Below, piece after piece: positions 1,361 through 12,240 of a stretch of DNA of 24,055 bases. Under the pieces are notes generated by a model, which was not told the origin of the DNA, did no database searches, and saw nothing but the letters and a program-made list of their open reading frames with translations. A program made the position numbers and the translations under genes. The DNA comes from a virus, in the IMG/VR virus record IMGVR_UViG_3300009073_000034, positions 1 to 24,055 of that record, one strand, 5' to 3'. Numbering within the stretch: position 1 is the first letter of the stretch; each line of letters starts with the position of its first letter.

Positions 1361-2773
1361 ATGACTAATAAAAAGAAAAATAAAAATAGCTCAACTAAAA
1401 AGAAAGAAGCTCCACGAGTTAATGATCTAGAGGCTGGAGTCTTCGGAGGAAATCCGTTTGCGACTGGGACACAAATCTCGCAAACAGATACGATCGAGCA
1501 GGAAATTCGCGGAAATTTAATTACTAATCAGAGACATTTACTTTCTCAAGTCTATGTGGAAATTGGTTTAGTAAAAACGATGGTCGATGTTCCAGTAGAA
1601 GACGCACTCCGCGGACACATAACTATAAATACTTCCGAACTCGACTCAGACGATATAAAAAAACTACATACAAAAATGCGTCGCGAGAAAGACATTCACG
1701 TCTTAGGTCAAGCTATTAAATGGATGCGACTCTACGGCGGTGGTGGAATTATCATCATTAACGAAGACAAACCAGAGGACGAACTCGACATTAAAAAAAT
1801 AAAAATAGATGAAAAAATAACTTTTAAATCTGTCGATCTATGGGAGTTATATGGAAACACTGAGAACTATACTGACATAACAGAAAAACTAGAACATCTA
1901 TCCGATATAAAAGAAGTCAACTATCGCTATTATCAGAACGAAGTGCATCCGACTCGCGTGATGAAACTCCGCGGAATACAACCACCAGCGCATTTAAAGG
2001 GGCGTGTTCATGGGTTCGGACTTTCAATTTTAGAGTCAGTAATTCGCTCAGTAAATCAATATTTAAAAGCGACGAACGTGGCTTTCGAAGTACTCGACGA
2101 ATTTAAAATAGACGTTTTTAAAATCGCAGGCTTGACTGAAACATTAATGACTTCTGGCGGAGATGCAAAAATTCACAAACGCATCTCTTTAGCAAACAGA
2201 GAAAAATCCTACTTGAACGCGATCACTATGGATGGTGATGATGATTATATCCAAAAACAATTACAGTTTACAGGACTCGCAGAAGCTATGGAAGGTATTC
2301 GTATGCAAGTCGCATCTGACTTGAGAATGCCACTCACGAAACTTTTTGGAGTTTCAAGCGCAGGATTTAACTCAGGCGAGGACGACATCGAGAACTATAA
2401 CGCTATGATAGAGTCGAGCATTAGATCCAAAATTGAGTTCGAACTTTTAAAGATGGTCGAAATAAGATGTCAGCAACTTTTTGGAATTGTTCCAGAAGAC
2501 TTAGAAGTAGAGTTCGAGCCGCTTCGTGTAATGTCTTCGGAGCAAGAGGAAAATGTAAAAACACAAAAATTTAATAGAGCATTACAGGCGAGAACTGTCG
2601 GAGAAATTTCGGCGACAGATTTTAAAGAGGCGATGAATATTGATAATCTAATCGGAGTTCAACTAGATGTTACAGACGAACTTTTTGAAACAAGCGAAGA
2701 CGCTATCACAGGTGACGAAGTTGCGCCGATCGGATCAAGTGAGAATGCGCCCGAAGCAAAGGAGTCTAAATAA
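1361..2773 (+). CDS. Portal protein (Phage_portal_3 / DUF1073 type)
   Basis: Dodecameric portal ring at the capsid vertex, docking the terminase and later the connector. The N-terminal region has the family pattern of a Lys-rich leader, a GNPFATGT stretch, then a helix with VDVPVEDALRG. The glycine-rich MRLYGGGGIIII segment and the VSSAGFNSGEDDIENYNAMIE motif, near residues 326-346, are typical of this portal group and fix the identity. The acidic C-terminal tail is common for portals. A ribosome site AAAAGG precedes ATG 1361. Its position directly after the large terminase and before the F-like head protein is the standard phage order. Length (470 aa) is usual. Confidence 0.93.
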   Translation: MTNKKKNKNSSTKKKEAPRVNDLEAGVFGGNPFATGTQISQTDTIEQEIRGNLITNQRHLLSQVYVEIGLVKTMVDVPVEDALRGHITINTSELDSDDIKKLHTKMRREKDIHVLGQAIKWMRLYGGGGIIIINEDKPEDELDIKKIKIDEKITFKSVDLWELYGNTENYTDITEKLEHLSDIKEVNYRYYQNEVHPTRVMKLRGIQPPAHLKGRVHGFGLSILESVIRSVNQYLKATNVAFEVLDEFKIDVFKIAGLTETLMTSGGDAKIHKRISLANREKSYLNAITMDGDDDYIQKQLQFTGLAEAMEGIRMQVASDLRMPLTKLFGVSSAGFNSGEDDIENYNAMIESSIRSKIEFELLKMVEIRCQQLFGIVPEDLEVEFEPLRVMSSEQEENVKTQKFNRALQARTVGEISATDFKEAMNIDNLIGVQLDVTDELFETSEDAITGDEVAPIGSSENAPEAKESK

Positions 2774-3150
2774 TGAAATTGACTTGGCATCCAGGTGTGC
2801 ACCTAAAAGACATCGAGAAAGATATAATTGAAATGGCGATGAAATACTTTCAAGGAAATAAAATCAAAGCAGCTGAAAGTTTAGGCATTTCGGAGAGAAC
2901 TATTTATAATAAACTAAAGGAGTACGAAGTTGAGTTACAAGGAAAAACAGAAGGAGCTCAGAGAATTGAGAAAAACGGGTCGAGCGAAGAAGCGACCGAT
3001 CCCGGGACAGAGTCTAAATCCGATGATGAACTTTCCGCGAAACGCACTCTGCCCCTGCGGAAGCCAGAAGAAGTTCAAAAATTGCCATTTAAAACAACAG
3101 TCGCAAACTTTGCCAAAAGAGCAGTTGGTAAAAGTGAGACAGGTAATTAG
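2773..3150 (+). CDS. Small protein with Fis-type helix-turn-helix
   Basis: The first half is a clear Fis/HTH_8 fold: an acidic amphipathic helix (KDIEKDIIEMAMKYF) followed by GNKIKAAESLGISERTIYNKLKEY at residues 28-51, the DNA-binding region seen at the end of NtrC-type activators and in small phage proteins. The start ATG 2773 overlaps the portal stop (TAATG) and has AAAGGAG 8 bases upstream, so it is translated with the portal gene. From about residue 53 the frame overlaps a SEC-C gene in another frame, and the second half has a low-complexity, poorly constrained look. It may be a small regulator or a packaging accessory protein; the function is not known from the sequence. Confidence 0.7.
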   Translation: MKLTWHPGVHLKDIEKDIIEMAMKYFQGNKIKAAESLGISERTIYNKLKEYEVELQGKTEGAQRIEKNGSSEEATDPGTESKSDDELSAKRTLPLRKPEEVQKLPFKTTVANFAKRAVGKSETGN

Positions 3151-3193
3151 AGATTATGTCGAAGCGAAAAAAGAAGAAGCAGCGAATACTTAA
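2930..3193 (+). CDS. SEC-C zinc-motif protein, nested in another frame
   Basis: An 87 aa, strongly basic protein with a textbook SEC-C motif, LCPCGSQKKFKNCH, at residues 40-53; the Cys-x-Cys and Cys-His pairs bind one zinc ion in SecA and many small proteins. The frame is +1 relative to the HTH gene and overlaps it by 221 bases. TTG at 2930 is supported by an ideal AAAGGAG at 2916-2922, seven bases upstream, inside the end of the HTH domain. The far end overlaps the start of the next head gene by 38 bases. The motif is too exact to be chance, so this frame is coding. The role in the phage is unknown; SEC-C proteins often act as small protein- or nucleic acid-binding adaptors. Confidence 0.75.
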   Translation: MSYKEKQKELRELRKTGRAKKRPIPGQSLNPMMNFPRNALCPCGSQKKFKNCHLKQQSQTLPKEQLVKVRQVIRDYVEAKKEEAANT

Positions 3194-8940: not shown

Positions 8941-10059
8941 ATGGATTTAGATATTAATAACATAATAAATATTTCGGTATCACAGACGCCAGTCGGGGTA
9001 AGTGCATATAATACATCAAATTTAGCTATCATTACGGATGATACTGCTGGCGCAGAGTTCGGGACAGATGGTTACAAAATTTATTTCAGTGCGTCGCAAG
9101 TTGCAGAGGATTTCGGAACAGACACAGACACATATAAAATGTCTGCGGCTATTTTTCAGCAACCACAAAATATTTTAACTGGAGGCGGATACTTAGTAGT
9201 AATTCCAACTTTAGCAAGCGAAACGCTAGGAGAGGCGATTGAAAGAACTGACGGATTAGTTCAATACTTTGGAGTTATTTCAAATCTCGACGTGAGTGAC
9301 GTGGATTTAGCGGCGGCCGCGGCGGTTGTTCAATCTCGCGACAAAATTCTCGGAGTTGTTTCGATTGACTCAGCGGATTTAGACACTAGTGGATCATTCG
9401 ATAATGTCAGACTCGCTTCGCAAGACCAAACAAGATGTTTATTTCATACAGATTTAGACGAAGGCTTATTATTTTTAGCTGGTTATTTTGGTCGTGGACT
9501 TTCTGTTAACTTTAACGGATCAGCTACGACTCAGACGATGGATTTAAAACCACTAGTAGGCGTTTTACCAGGCGACTATTCGAGCGCAGACATTATAAAA
9601 GCGAAAGAAGCTGGCGCAGACATCTATGTAACTTATGGCGGAGTGCCGAGAACGAAGACTTCTGGAGAGAACAAATTTTTCGATAGAGTTTATAACAGAC
9701 TATGGATGGTCGGAGCTCTAAAAGTAGCTGGTTTTAACACTTTAGCAACTGCTTCCACAAAAATAGCTCAGACAGAAGACGGAGTCGACGCTTTAAAAGC
9801 AGCTTATATAAGAGTCTTAGAACTTGGAGTTACAAACGGATTTATAGCTCCAAGTGCTATTCAGGCGTCGACAACTTTCGGAGATCCCGAAGACTTTTAC
9901 GCAAACATAGAACAACGCGGATATTATGTATATTCTCAACCAGTTTCGAAGCAACTTGCAAGCGAGAGAGCCGATAGGAAAGCTCCGCTTATACAAATAG
10001 CAGTTCAAGAGGCAGGCGCGATACATACTTCGTCTTTAATTATTAACATTAACAGGTAG
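8941..10059 (+). CDS. Contractile tail sheath (DUF3383)
   Basis: The sheath subunit that contracts on infection; it establishes that this is a myovirus-type tail. The N-terminal strand (NIINISVSQTPVGVSAYNTSNLAII), central TGGGYLVVIP and late FYANIEQRGYYVYSQPVSKQLASERADRKAPLIQIAVQEAGAIHTSSLIININR follow the DUF3383 pattern; the closing AGAIH and I-N-I-N-R are characteristic. 372 aa is compact, with no large surface insertion, like the simplified sheaths of small myoviruses. The ribosome site GGAGAAG lies just upstream of ATG 8941. The tube gene follows at once. Confidence 0.9.
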   Translation: MDLDINNIINISVSQTPVGVSAYNTSNLAIITDDTAGAEFGTDGYKIYFSASQVAEDFGTDTDTYKMSAAIFQQPQNILTGGGYLVVIPTLASETLGEAIERTDGLVQYFGVISNLDVSDVDLAAAAAVVQSRDKILGVVSIDSADLDTSGSFDNVRLASQDQTRCLFHTDLDEGLLFLAGYFGRGLSVNFNGSATTQTMDLKPLVGVLPGDYSSADIIKAKEAGADIYVTYGGVPRTKTSGENKFFDRVYNRLWMVGALKVAGFNTLATASTKIAQTEDGVDALKAAYIRVLELGVTNGFIAPSAIQASTTFGDPEDFYANIEQRGYYVYSQPVSKQLASERADRKAPLIQIAVQEAGAIHTSSLIININR

Positions 10060-10067
10060 GTTTAAAA

Positions 10068-10523
10068 ATGAATGTAGTAGCTATGTCGGGAAGCGACACA
10101 ATAGATATAAACGGAAGAGTACTAGTGGATTTAGCGGACGGAGATTTCGTCGGCTTAACATATCCGAACGACATCGCAGAATTAAAAACTGGAAAAAATA
10201 ATAATTCTATTTATAGTTTTAATTCTACGGGCAGACAAACGGAGTTAACTATCAGGTTAATTCGTGGATCATCGGACGACAAATACATGAACGGACTTTT
10301 ACAAACTCAACAAGCGGATTTTGCGCGAACGATTTTATTAACGGCAGTAATGTCTAAAAAAATCGGTGACGGAAAAGGAAACGTAATCAGCGACACATAC
10401 ATAATGTCAGGTGGTATTTTTTCAAAGCAAGTTGAAACAAAATCGAATGCAGAAGGTGATACGGAACAATCAGTTTCAGTTTATACTATGATGTATTCGA
10501 ATAGCCCAAGAGCGATAGGATAA
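10068..10523 (+). CDS. Tail tube protein (DUF3277-like)
   Basis: The inner tube through which DNA passes. 151 aa, beta-rich, placed directly after the sheath, as in nearly all contractile systems. Recognisable elements are the early SGSDTIDINGRVLVDLADGDFVGL, the mid ELTIRLIRGSSDD followed by a helix (KYMNGLLQTQQADFA), and a C-terminal strand pair ending in a short tail. The pattern of strand, helix after RL-x-RGS and strand fits DUF3277-like tubes. Confidence comes from both position and fold pattern; the exact family name is less certain. Confidence 0.82.
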   Translation: MNVVAMSGSDTIDINGRVLVDLADGDFVGLTYPNDIAELKTGKNNNSIYSFNSTGRQTELTIRLIRGSSDDKYMNGLLQTQQADFARTILLTAVMSKKIGDGKGNVISDTYIMSGGIFSKQVETKSNAEGDTEQSVSVYTMMYSNSPRAIG

Positions 10524-10527
10524 TAAA

Positions 10528-10911
10528 ATGAAATTACCAAGTGGCGCAGAGCTGGAGATAACATTATCACCTTTTAAAATTTCAAAAAAGTTATATCAAA
10601 CTATTTTGAAAGCGATGAAAGGTTTAGAGATAGATCCAGGAATGGAAGTCGACGTGAGTTTTATTAAGGATATGATGTGCGAACTTCTTTCAAACGAAGA
10701 AGTGGAATTGGCTCTCGATGAGTGCATGAAGCGCGTAAAATATAACGGACATAGAATTAGCGAAGACACTTTCGAGGATGAGAAAGCGCGACAGGATTAT
10801 ATTTTAGTTTGTAAGGAGGTGGCACTGCGAAACGTGCTCCCTTTTATGAAAAACCTCTTTGCAGTGTTAGGAACAGCGCAAGAGGAAATAAATACACTTA
10901 TCCAAGAGTAG
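10528..10911 (+). CDS. Tail assembly chaperone, short form
   Basis: A 127 aa helical protein between the tube and the tape measure genes, the invariant place for the G-type chaperone that coats the tape measure during tail assembly. N-terminal MKLPSGAELEITLSPFKISKKLYQTI is a typical chaperone start, followed by helices without membrane or catalytic motifs. It ends at TAG 10909 in frame 1, but frame 0 stays open well past this stop and contains protein-like sequence, so most ribosomes would make this form and a minority a longer one by -1 shift near 10845. Confidence 0.8.
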   Translation: MKLPSGAELEITLSPFKISKKLYQTILKAMKGLEIDPGMEVDVSFIKDMMCELLSNEEVELALDECMKRVKYNGHRISEDTFEDEKARQDYILVCKEVALRNVLPFMKNLFAVLGTAQEEINTLIQE

Positions 10912-11093
10912 ATTTTTCGAAAGGCGACGATGAGTTATTAATTTTTTTAAAACTAGTTAAAGCAGGATACGGAACGCTAAAAGAAGTTCAAAATTTTAAT
11001 GCGCGCGAAGTTATGCAAGCTTTAGCATACGATAATTTTTTAGTGGATTATGAGAACACTTTTCAGAGGTTGAACACAAATGAAAGTAGCTGA
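10528..11093 (+). CDS. Tail assembly chaperone, -1 frameshift long form
   Basis: Join 10528-10845 with 10845-11093 to read 188 aa. A heptamer C CCT TTT at 10839-10845 sits in phase, and the -1 frame continues YEKPLC... then GDDELLIFLKLVKAGYGTLKEVQNF and AREVMQALAYDNFLVDYENTF before TGA 11091. That region has no other gene and no start codon of its own in frame 0 (the frame is closed upstream at 10812-10814), yet it clearly looks like coding helical protein. Lambda G/GT and many other phages use this same arrangement. The far end overlaps the tape measure start by 14 bases. Confidence 0.75.
10839..10885 (+). promoter_or_regulatory. -1 frameshift signal: slippery heptamer and stem-loop
   Basis: C CCT TTT (10839-10845) fits X XXY YYZ in the zero frame (codons CCT, TTT). 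Eight bases later CCTCTT (10854-10859) pairs with AAGAGG (10880-10885); after a bulged T, GC 10861-10862 pairs with GC 10878-10879, closing a 15-base loop. Such spacing is usual for stimulatory structures. An AAGGAGGT at 10813-10820 lies upstream and, as in dnaX, could assist, though its spacing is longer than in dnaX. Confidence 0.7.
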
Positions 11094-12240
11094 ACTATTT
11101 GTAAAATTAGGATTAACGGGCGACAAAAAAGTTTCGTCTGGTTTGTCGAATGTAAATAAAGGAATGAGTTCGGCTGTCGCAAAAGGGCAGCTGATGGCGC
11201 AAGCTATTACAGAAGCAGGAAAAGCATTTTTAAAATTCTCACAAATGGGCTTCGAAGCAGGAACCGAAATAACGGTTTTTTCTGAGCGAACAGGATTATC
11301 CACAAAAAAATTACAACAGTTTCAATACGCGGGCGAACAAATGGGTTTGTCTGCTAAAGGTTTGACTTCTAACTTATTAAGTTTGCATCAAAAAATGTCA
11401 GACATAACTGCGCTCGGAGAAGTAAAAACAGAAGGCTTCGCGTACATGAGCCAATTTGTAGACTTCGATGAGTCTAAAGCTCAGAGTGATGTTTTTTATT
11501 TAGTACAAAAAGCGCAGGAGTTTGCGCAAACAGCACTCGCAAAAGGAAAGTCTCGCGGCTTTGTAACTAGTATTTTAGGAAATGCAGGTTTTTCCGAAGA
11601 CATGTTCGCTCCGCTATTGTCAGGAGTTTTTAACGAGAAGAATTTTAGGAATGCGCCGATCATAGGAAAAGGCGAAGCTAAAAGATTACATCAAACTGGC
11701 GTAGCTTTCTCGAATTTAGGTAAAAAAATAAATCGCGCGATGATTGGACTCACTGGCAAACATGCTGGAAAAATTATTAAGTTTGTAAATCAATTAATTC
11801 CACCGATAACAGATTTAATAGGGGCATTATTAACTTTCGCAGACAAAGCCAAAGTTTTTGAAATTATAGCTTTGTCTATGAAAGGTATAGAACAAATTAT
11901 AAATGGATTTTTGATCGCACTTGAAAAATTTGGTTTGGTTGAAATTTCTAAAGACGCAGAGAAAAAAATAAATGGCGGGTCGAAAGAAAGTAGTATATTT
12001 GGAGGCTTCGGTAAATTTTTAAAAGATAATTTCCGAGCAGCAAAGTTGGATGTCGACACGCTTCGAAAAAAACAGGAAAATAAATACGGATTTAAATCTG
12101 TAGCTCCGACTATAACTGTAAATAATAATCAGAACATAGTCGCGAGCGATCCGTCTGCGGTAAGCAGCGCAGTAAATCGCGGAACTTCCAAAGCAGTGAC
12201 AGACTCTTTTAACCAAGTAAATAAAAACAGGATTGATTAA
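11080..12240 (+). CDS. Short tape measure protein
   Basis: Sets the tail length. The N-terminal strand-turn (KVAELFVKLGLTGDKKVSSGLSNVNKGM) and the following long helices with FSERTGLSTKKLQQFQYAGEQMGLSA are typical of tape measure proteins, and a hydrophobic stretch near residues 235-275 (LIPPITDLIGALLTF, FEIIALSMKGIEQIINGFLIALEKFGLV) is the expected membrane-inserting region. The C-terminal VAPTITVNNNQNIVASDPSAVSSAVNRG is a common ending. At about 1.5 Angstrom per residue, 386 aa would give a tail near 58 nm, short for a contractile phage. ATG 11080 lies within the chaperone long frame. Confidence 0.85.
   Translation: MKVAELFVKLGLTGDKKVSSGLSNVNKGMSSAVAKGQLMAQAITEAGKAFLKFSQMGFEAGTEITVFSERTGLSTKKLQQFQYAGEQMGLSAKGLTSNLLSLHQKMSDITALGEVKTEGFAYMSQFVDFDESKAQSDVFYLVQKAQEFAQTALAKGKSRGFVTSILGNAGFSEDMFAPLLSGVFNEKNFRNAPIIGKGEAKRLHQTGVAFSNLGKKINRAMIGLTGKHAGKIIKFVNQLIPPITDLIGALLTFADKAKVFEIIALSMKGIEQIINGFLIALEKFGLVEISKDAEKKINGGSKESSIFGGFGKFLKDNFRAAKLDVDTLRKKQENKYGFKSVAPTITVNNNQNIVASDPSAVSSAVNRGTSKAVTDSFNQVNKNRID

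Follow-up and report, generated by a model that had tools for sequence, protein, structure and literature searches.

A candidate programmed -1 frameshift in the tail assembly chaperone gene of a contractile-tailed phage

Arrangement of the locus and its two reading frames

The window, that is, the whole stretch of DNA that was analyzed, is itself a virus record of 24,055 bases. The neighborhood of the locus is made up of genes of a contractile-tailed phage, which encode a terminase (Terminase_3) and major capsid, sheath, tube, tape measure, and baseplate proteins. Genes for a Dit-like protein, a gp41-like baseplate hub, and a baseplate wedge follow downstream of the tape measure gene. A chaperone candidate is situated between the tube and tape measure genes (order: sheath, tube, chaperone candidate, tape measure) and thus occupies the position of a tail chaperone gene. 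The features of the region are listed below.

8941 to 10059: tail sheath gene (DUF3383)
10068 to 10523: gene for a tube-like structural protein (phrog_280; E value, 1e-7)
10528 to 10911, + strand: frame-0 open reading frame (ORF) for the putative short (G-like) form of the tail assembly chaperone (127 amino acids [aa], 14.5 kDa), based on the ORF, relatives, an AF2 model, and a BFVD match
10813 to 10820, + strand: AAGGAGGT, a Shine-Dalgarno (SD)-like element 18 nucleotides (nt) before the heptamer, with a candidate role
10839 to 10845, + strand: slippery heptamer C CCT TTT, in phase with the ORF at 10528 to 10911, with the frame-0 codons CCT (Pro105) and TTT (Phe106)
10845 to 11093, + strand: putative -1 frame extension (T-like domain) of 82 codons plus stop, based on the open frame, phrog_16793, and relatives
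10846 to 10911, + strand: dual-coded overlap from the slip site to the frame-0 stop, with raised synonymous conservation
10854 to 10885, + strand: hairpin 8 nt past the heptamer, comprising CCTCTT (10854 to 10859) and AAGAGG (10880 to 10885), two further G-C pairs, and an inner stem
11080 to 12240: tape measure gene (phrog_12506; E value, 1e-9)

An earlier note, made from the letters of the window, had described an in-phase C CCT TTT, an upstream AAGGAGGT, and a -1 frame that remains open to 11093 without a start codon. All of these could be located at the positions that it gave. An open -1 frame extends from 10815 to 11093 and ends in a stop codon at 11091 to 11093; between its opening and a point at least 90 nt beyond the heptamer start, it contains no ATG, GTG, or TTG. 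CCCTTTT occurs once on the + strand of the window. In-phase XXXYYYZ heptamers of any kind were counted 85 times in the 6771 codons of this AT-rich sequence, and the probability of encountering one by chance within the 32-codon overlap is about 0.33. Therefore, the heptamer alone proves little, and the comparative evidence decides. A search of Rfam with positions 10700 to 11100 gave no match.

A fusion of the two frames is predicted to comprise 188 aa and 21.7 kDa (106 plus 82 residues), compared to the 127 aa and 14.5 kDa of the short form. The -1 domain of the window was matched by phrog_16793 (E value, 3e-12), a family with no assigned function that also matched all 13 relatives scanned. The domain is encoded by 13 viral loci and by Bdellovibrio phage phi1422, always in the -1 frame relative to the upstream ORF. 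The earlier note had expected a helical protein; helices were indeed modeled, but two strands come before them, and the model is of modest confidence (pLDDT, 72). With this low-confidence model, neither a significant fold match nor a viral fold match was obtained.

The frame-0 protein shares 36 to 51% identity with its relatives. It showed no chaperone match of its own in Pfam, PHROG, or NCBIfam, and one of 13 frame-0 sequences of relatives reached phrog_3840 (E value, 0.034). The AF2 model of the protein had a pLDDT of 90.6. Fold searches of the PDB with this model returned nothing significant. Among the predicted viral structures of BFVD, the best match was H9C0N1, followed by A0A8S5N6K5, which is named "Tail assembly chaperone protein" (E value, 1.4e-7; TM score, 0.73); weaker structural matches included a protein of Iodobacter phage phiPLPE and a tape measure chaperone of a Citrobacter phage. 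The frame-0 product is similar to known tail assembly chaperones in its predicted structure.

Other ORFs of the window also drew our attention. A Fis-family helix-turn-helix ORF (2773 to 3193; PF02954; E value, 5e-15) is located between portal-region and minor head genes. An ORF at 2930 to 3193, which has a CPCGSQKKFKNC motif like a SEC-C zinc motif, overlaps it in a different frame; the arrangement may represent a further frame change or two overlapping genes. At 20955 to 21506, a 183-aa membrane ORF matching Pfam ETR1_N (the N-terminal sensor domain of ethylene receptors; E value, 7e-16) stands alone directly after an amidase endolysin. Its CGIGH motif resembles the Cys/His copper-site spacing of ETR1. 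A weak relative was seen only in Maribacter phages (39% over 87 aa), and no relatives of this ORF were found in viral contigs. Two genes further on, a 108-aa ORF (21940 to 22266) resembles the start of a response-regulator receiver (PF00072; E value, 0.006, below the curated cutoff).

Slip-site bases and synonymous conservation among relatives

To collect relatives without selecting them for the site under test, an alignment of the C-terminal -1 domain alone, with the slip site excluded, was searched against viral contigs. This search yielded 69 viral loci. NCCTTTY was present at the same codon in 66 of the 66 loci that could be anchored on the frame-0 Pro-Phe pair; beyond these, two loci (L070 and L071) carry CCCTTTT in the -1 phase, and L072 is incomplete. 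An earlier set of 13 loci had been obtained with patterns that include PFYEKPLC and, therefore, was kept out of the heptamer evidence. When the frame-0 protein served as the query against viral contigs, only the near-identical L002 was returned, a truncated contig that ends before the slip site, and a genome scan returned only one relative, in a metagenome bin labeled Bacteroidetes (L091; G CCT TTT). After the window and phi1422 were added and sequences that were more than 85% identical were removed, 60 nonredundant sequences remained.

All 60 sequences carry NCCTTTY at the same codon (25 CCCTTTT, 18 CCCTTTC, 14 GCCTTTT, 2 TCCTTTT, and 1 ACCTTTC). The proline codon is CCT in every case, compared to a background of 26% (P of about 2e-35 if the sequences are independent). 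C stands at base 1 of the heptamer in 43 of the 60; given how the preceding amino acids, which vary widely, are encoded, 13.6 would be expected (P of about 1.5e-18, again under independence). About 30% of the sequences (17 of 60; 14 G, 2 T, and 1 A) have another base at this position and keep both frames, which indicates that C at base 1 is preferred but not essential. One codon further on, T TTT TTG is seen in five of these 17 sequences and in seven sequences altogether, and a perfect XXXYYYZ site (CCCTTTY or TTTTTTG) is found in 48 of the 60. The rest of the relatives without C at base 1 would need slippage of a single tRNA or mismatched slippage in the P site. The earlier note had regarded relatives that lack the heptamer while keeping both frames as a refutation of the frameshift. 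Such relatives do exist; however, CCTTTY or T TTT TTG stands at the same codon in them, and these imperfect sites therefore appear to be variants of the slip site and do not seem to refute the frameshift. In most relatives, the frame-0 stop lies 60 to 69 nt past the heptamer.

The note had also proposed conservation of synonymous sites in relatives as a check, and this analysis came out in its favor. Pairwise synonymous identity relative to the codon-usage expectation was close to 1 (0.8 to 1.4) from codon -40 to codon -2 in the 60 sequences. At codon -1, which ends in base 1 of the heptamer, it leaped to 2.7, and at the proline codon it reached 3.8, so that the excess begins abruptly at the heptamer. 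Within the overlap, values of 1.7 to 4.9 were obtained at codons +2, +4, +5, +6, and +8. The flat upstream baseline served as an internal control, and shared ancestry thus does not explain the signal. If ribosomes shift at this point, no -1 frame codon that includes base 1 or base 4 of the heptamer is decoded, and the conservation of these bases is therefore best explained by tRNA re-pairing.

Hairpin and Shine-Dalgarno-like element

The stem that the earlier note had drawn beyond an 8-nt spacer is found in the window sequence, with a minimum free energy of -12.3 kcal/mol and a z score of -2.29 (5 of 200 shuffled sequences folded as well). In phage phi1422, a stem of 11 bp occupies the same register (z score, -2.7). 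The further claim that the hairpin specifies the site did not hold, since conservation of the hairpin does not extend to the family as a whole. RNAalifold returned no pairs and no family consensus structure for 23 relatives, and the stem of the window paired in just 53% of the cells when relatives were compared. The mean fold z score of the 60 relatives was slightly lower than that of upstream controls (-0.92 versus -0.53). The conserved stem-loop a few nucleotides downstream that belongs to dnaX-type sites is thus lacking here. The hairpin may be a lineage-limited stimulator that helps in some lineages.

GGAGG was found in 18 of the 60 relatives compared to 6.5 expected, a nearly 3-fold excess, and always at position -24 (-24 to -20). 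Among Glu-Val pairs at the SD-like position, GAG was used before GTN in 34 of 46 cases, compared to 59 of 245 elsewhere (P = 2e-10). All 18 GGAGG sequences of the nonredundant set belong to the 41 sites of the CCC class, and none belong to the 19 others; L091, which has G CCT TTT and lies outside this set, also carries GGAGGT. On a weakly supported tree, a single well-supported independent pair bears on whether GGAGG or T at base 7 tracks base 1, and such associations may reflect function or shared ancestry. Stimulation of -1 shifting by SD sequences has been reported for a range of 8 to 11 nt upstream (PMC6321510), which is also the spacing of dnaX-type sites. At about 18 nt, AAGGAGGT lies too far upstream for this stimulatory range.

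Interpretation and comparison with known systems

Judging from the sequences compared here, the locus very probably constitutes a G/GT-type tail assembly chaperone gene with a programmed -1 frameshift at C CCT TTT. This central proposal of the earlier note is strongly supported by the -1 domain, the slip sites (n = 60), the gene position, and the predicted fold. Most ribosomes would read the ORF at 10528 to 10911 to its stop and release the 127-aa short form. Some would slip one base back, with tRNA-Pro and tRNA-Phe on CCT TTT re-pairing with CCC TTT, and would then read TAT GAA AAA CCT CTT TGC and onward in the -1 frame to 11093. The long form (residues 1 to 106 plus 82 new residues, 188 aa) would be a low-abundance product in the manner of lambda gpGT. 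By analogy, coating of the tape measure protein would fall to the short form, and recruitment of tail tube subunits during assembly would fall to the extension. The site, the two frames, and selection on both frames and on the slip bases are established by sequence and comparison; slippage in the host, its efficiency, and the chaperone function are inferred.

We weighed this reading against explanations that do without ribosomal slippage. If the -1 ORF were a separate gene with its own internal start, AAGGAGGT, which is strongly SD-like and lies at the opening of this ORF, could act as a ribosome-binding site, and gp58 of phi1422 has indeed been annotated as a separate coding sequence (CDS) with a TTG start. 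However, the -1 frame of the window has no start codon from its opening to position +90 of the heptamer, 31 of the 60 relatives likewise lack a start codon, and an SD-preceded start is present in only 5 of the 60. The conserved -1 residues YEKPLC begin right at the slip site. An internal start would also leave selection at base 1 of the heptamer and at the wobble position of the proline codon unexplained, and we regard it as very improbable. Transcriptional slippage by RNA polymerase would fit the runs of six T found in some relatives, but the run in the window has only four T, and the long homopolymers that are normally needed are missing in most relatives. Furthermore, selection on bases 1 and 4 in the XXXYYYZ codon phase is a signature of tRNA re-pairing, and we regard slippage of the polymerase as exceedingly improbable. 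The contig is metagenomic, and two ORFs could in principle represent one gene broken by a sequencing error or by decay, with no -1 product made. Such an origin is next to inconceivable, since roughly 60 divergent contigs as well as isolated phages share this arrangement and these bases, and constraint acts on both frames.

A different question is which tRNAs re-pair. Base 4 is T in 60 of 60 sequences, while base 1 is not C in 17 that keep CCTTTT and both frames, and base 7 is T in 16 of these 17 (P = 0.006, uncorrected for shared ancestry). Accordingly, the shift could essentially be slippage of the single tRNA-Phe on T TTY, with P-site re-pairing merely helpful. C at base 1 is, however, three times more frequent than expected, and tandem slippage with a first-base mismatch has viral precedents, such as the arterivirus site G UUA AAC. 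We consider this single-tRNA reading unlikely. A more elaborate version, in which C CCT TTY, G CCT TTT, and T TTT TTG are graded Phe slip sites with single-tRNA slippage on T TTY as the core and in which the CCC class is aided by GGAGG about 19 nt away, appears to us distinctly doubtful. Tandem -1 slippage of tRNA-Pro and tRNA-Phe is the best-supported reading. Within it, the invariance of base 4 together with the tolerance of base 1 suggests that re-pairing of Phe on T TTY is the indispensable step.

This kind of recoding is well known in phages, and the site has not been annotated before in this phage group. The analysis adds an unannotated recoding event to what is known of small contractile-tailed phages, a widespread group with sequenced isolates whose records divide the chaperone gene into two. 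With its approximately 60 naturally occurring versions, the slip site could serve for measuring which tRNA re-pairing and which stimulator set the ratio of short to long form.

A functional model is provided by the tail assembly chaperones gpG and gpGT of phage lambda, whose -1 frameshift was reportedly described by Xu, Hendrix and Duda in 2004. As in lambda, the gene studied here lies just upstream of the tape measure gene and combines a short frame-0 product with a -1 long form. The two differ in the heptamer (C CCT TTT here, G GGA AAG in lambda) and in the tail, which is contractile here (DUF3383 sheath). Sequence similarity to lambda gpG/gpGT was not found. In lambda, the partner of the short form is the tape measure protein and that of the extension is the tube protein, and neither form is present in the mature virion; the frameshift is conserved in a wide range of long-tailed phages, with low sequence similarity (PMC5009743). 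The G/T chaperones of E. coli phage 9g share with the window a motif that starts with CCCUUUU in a tail chaperone gene. However, 9g is a siphovirus, its motif is CCCUUUUUUU, and the reported shift is -2 (PMC4276943).

In distant dwarf phiPLPE-like and DUF3383-sheath myophages, the slot between tube and tape measure likewise contains a small ORF pair, of which the second ORF is in the -1 frame, and the overlap includes XXXYYYZ sites. These sites are GGGAAATTTTTTG in Hafnia phage yong1 and in Elizabethkingia phage EKP1, TTTTTTC in Salmonella phage BP63, and AAATTTT in an Acinetobacter phage. Myophages of this kind differ from the window in the heptamer (GGGAAAT, AAATTTT, TTTTTTG, and TTTTTTC), and no significant sequence match was obtained between the -1 domains of those four phages and that of the window. 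Vibrio phage 1.052.A (L017) carries CCCTTTTTTG, and its -1 domain lies in a stretch without an annotated gene. We regard the loci of these four myophages (L087, L088, L089, and L090) and L017 as candidates for unannotated -1 frameshifts between tube and tape measure genes. For Bdellovibrio phage phi1422 (L016, 2675 to 3252; NC_019525.1), the locus was deposited as two CDSs, with the TTG start of gp58 inside the conserved domain and no frameshift annotated; the main text of the phiPLPE-group paper that covers this phage mentions neither a frameshift nor a chaperone (PMC3391216). Nevertheless, gp57/gp58 of this isolate match the window in gene order, in the heptamer CCCTTTT, in both frames (43% identity), and in the register of the downstream hairpin.
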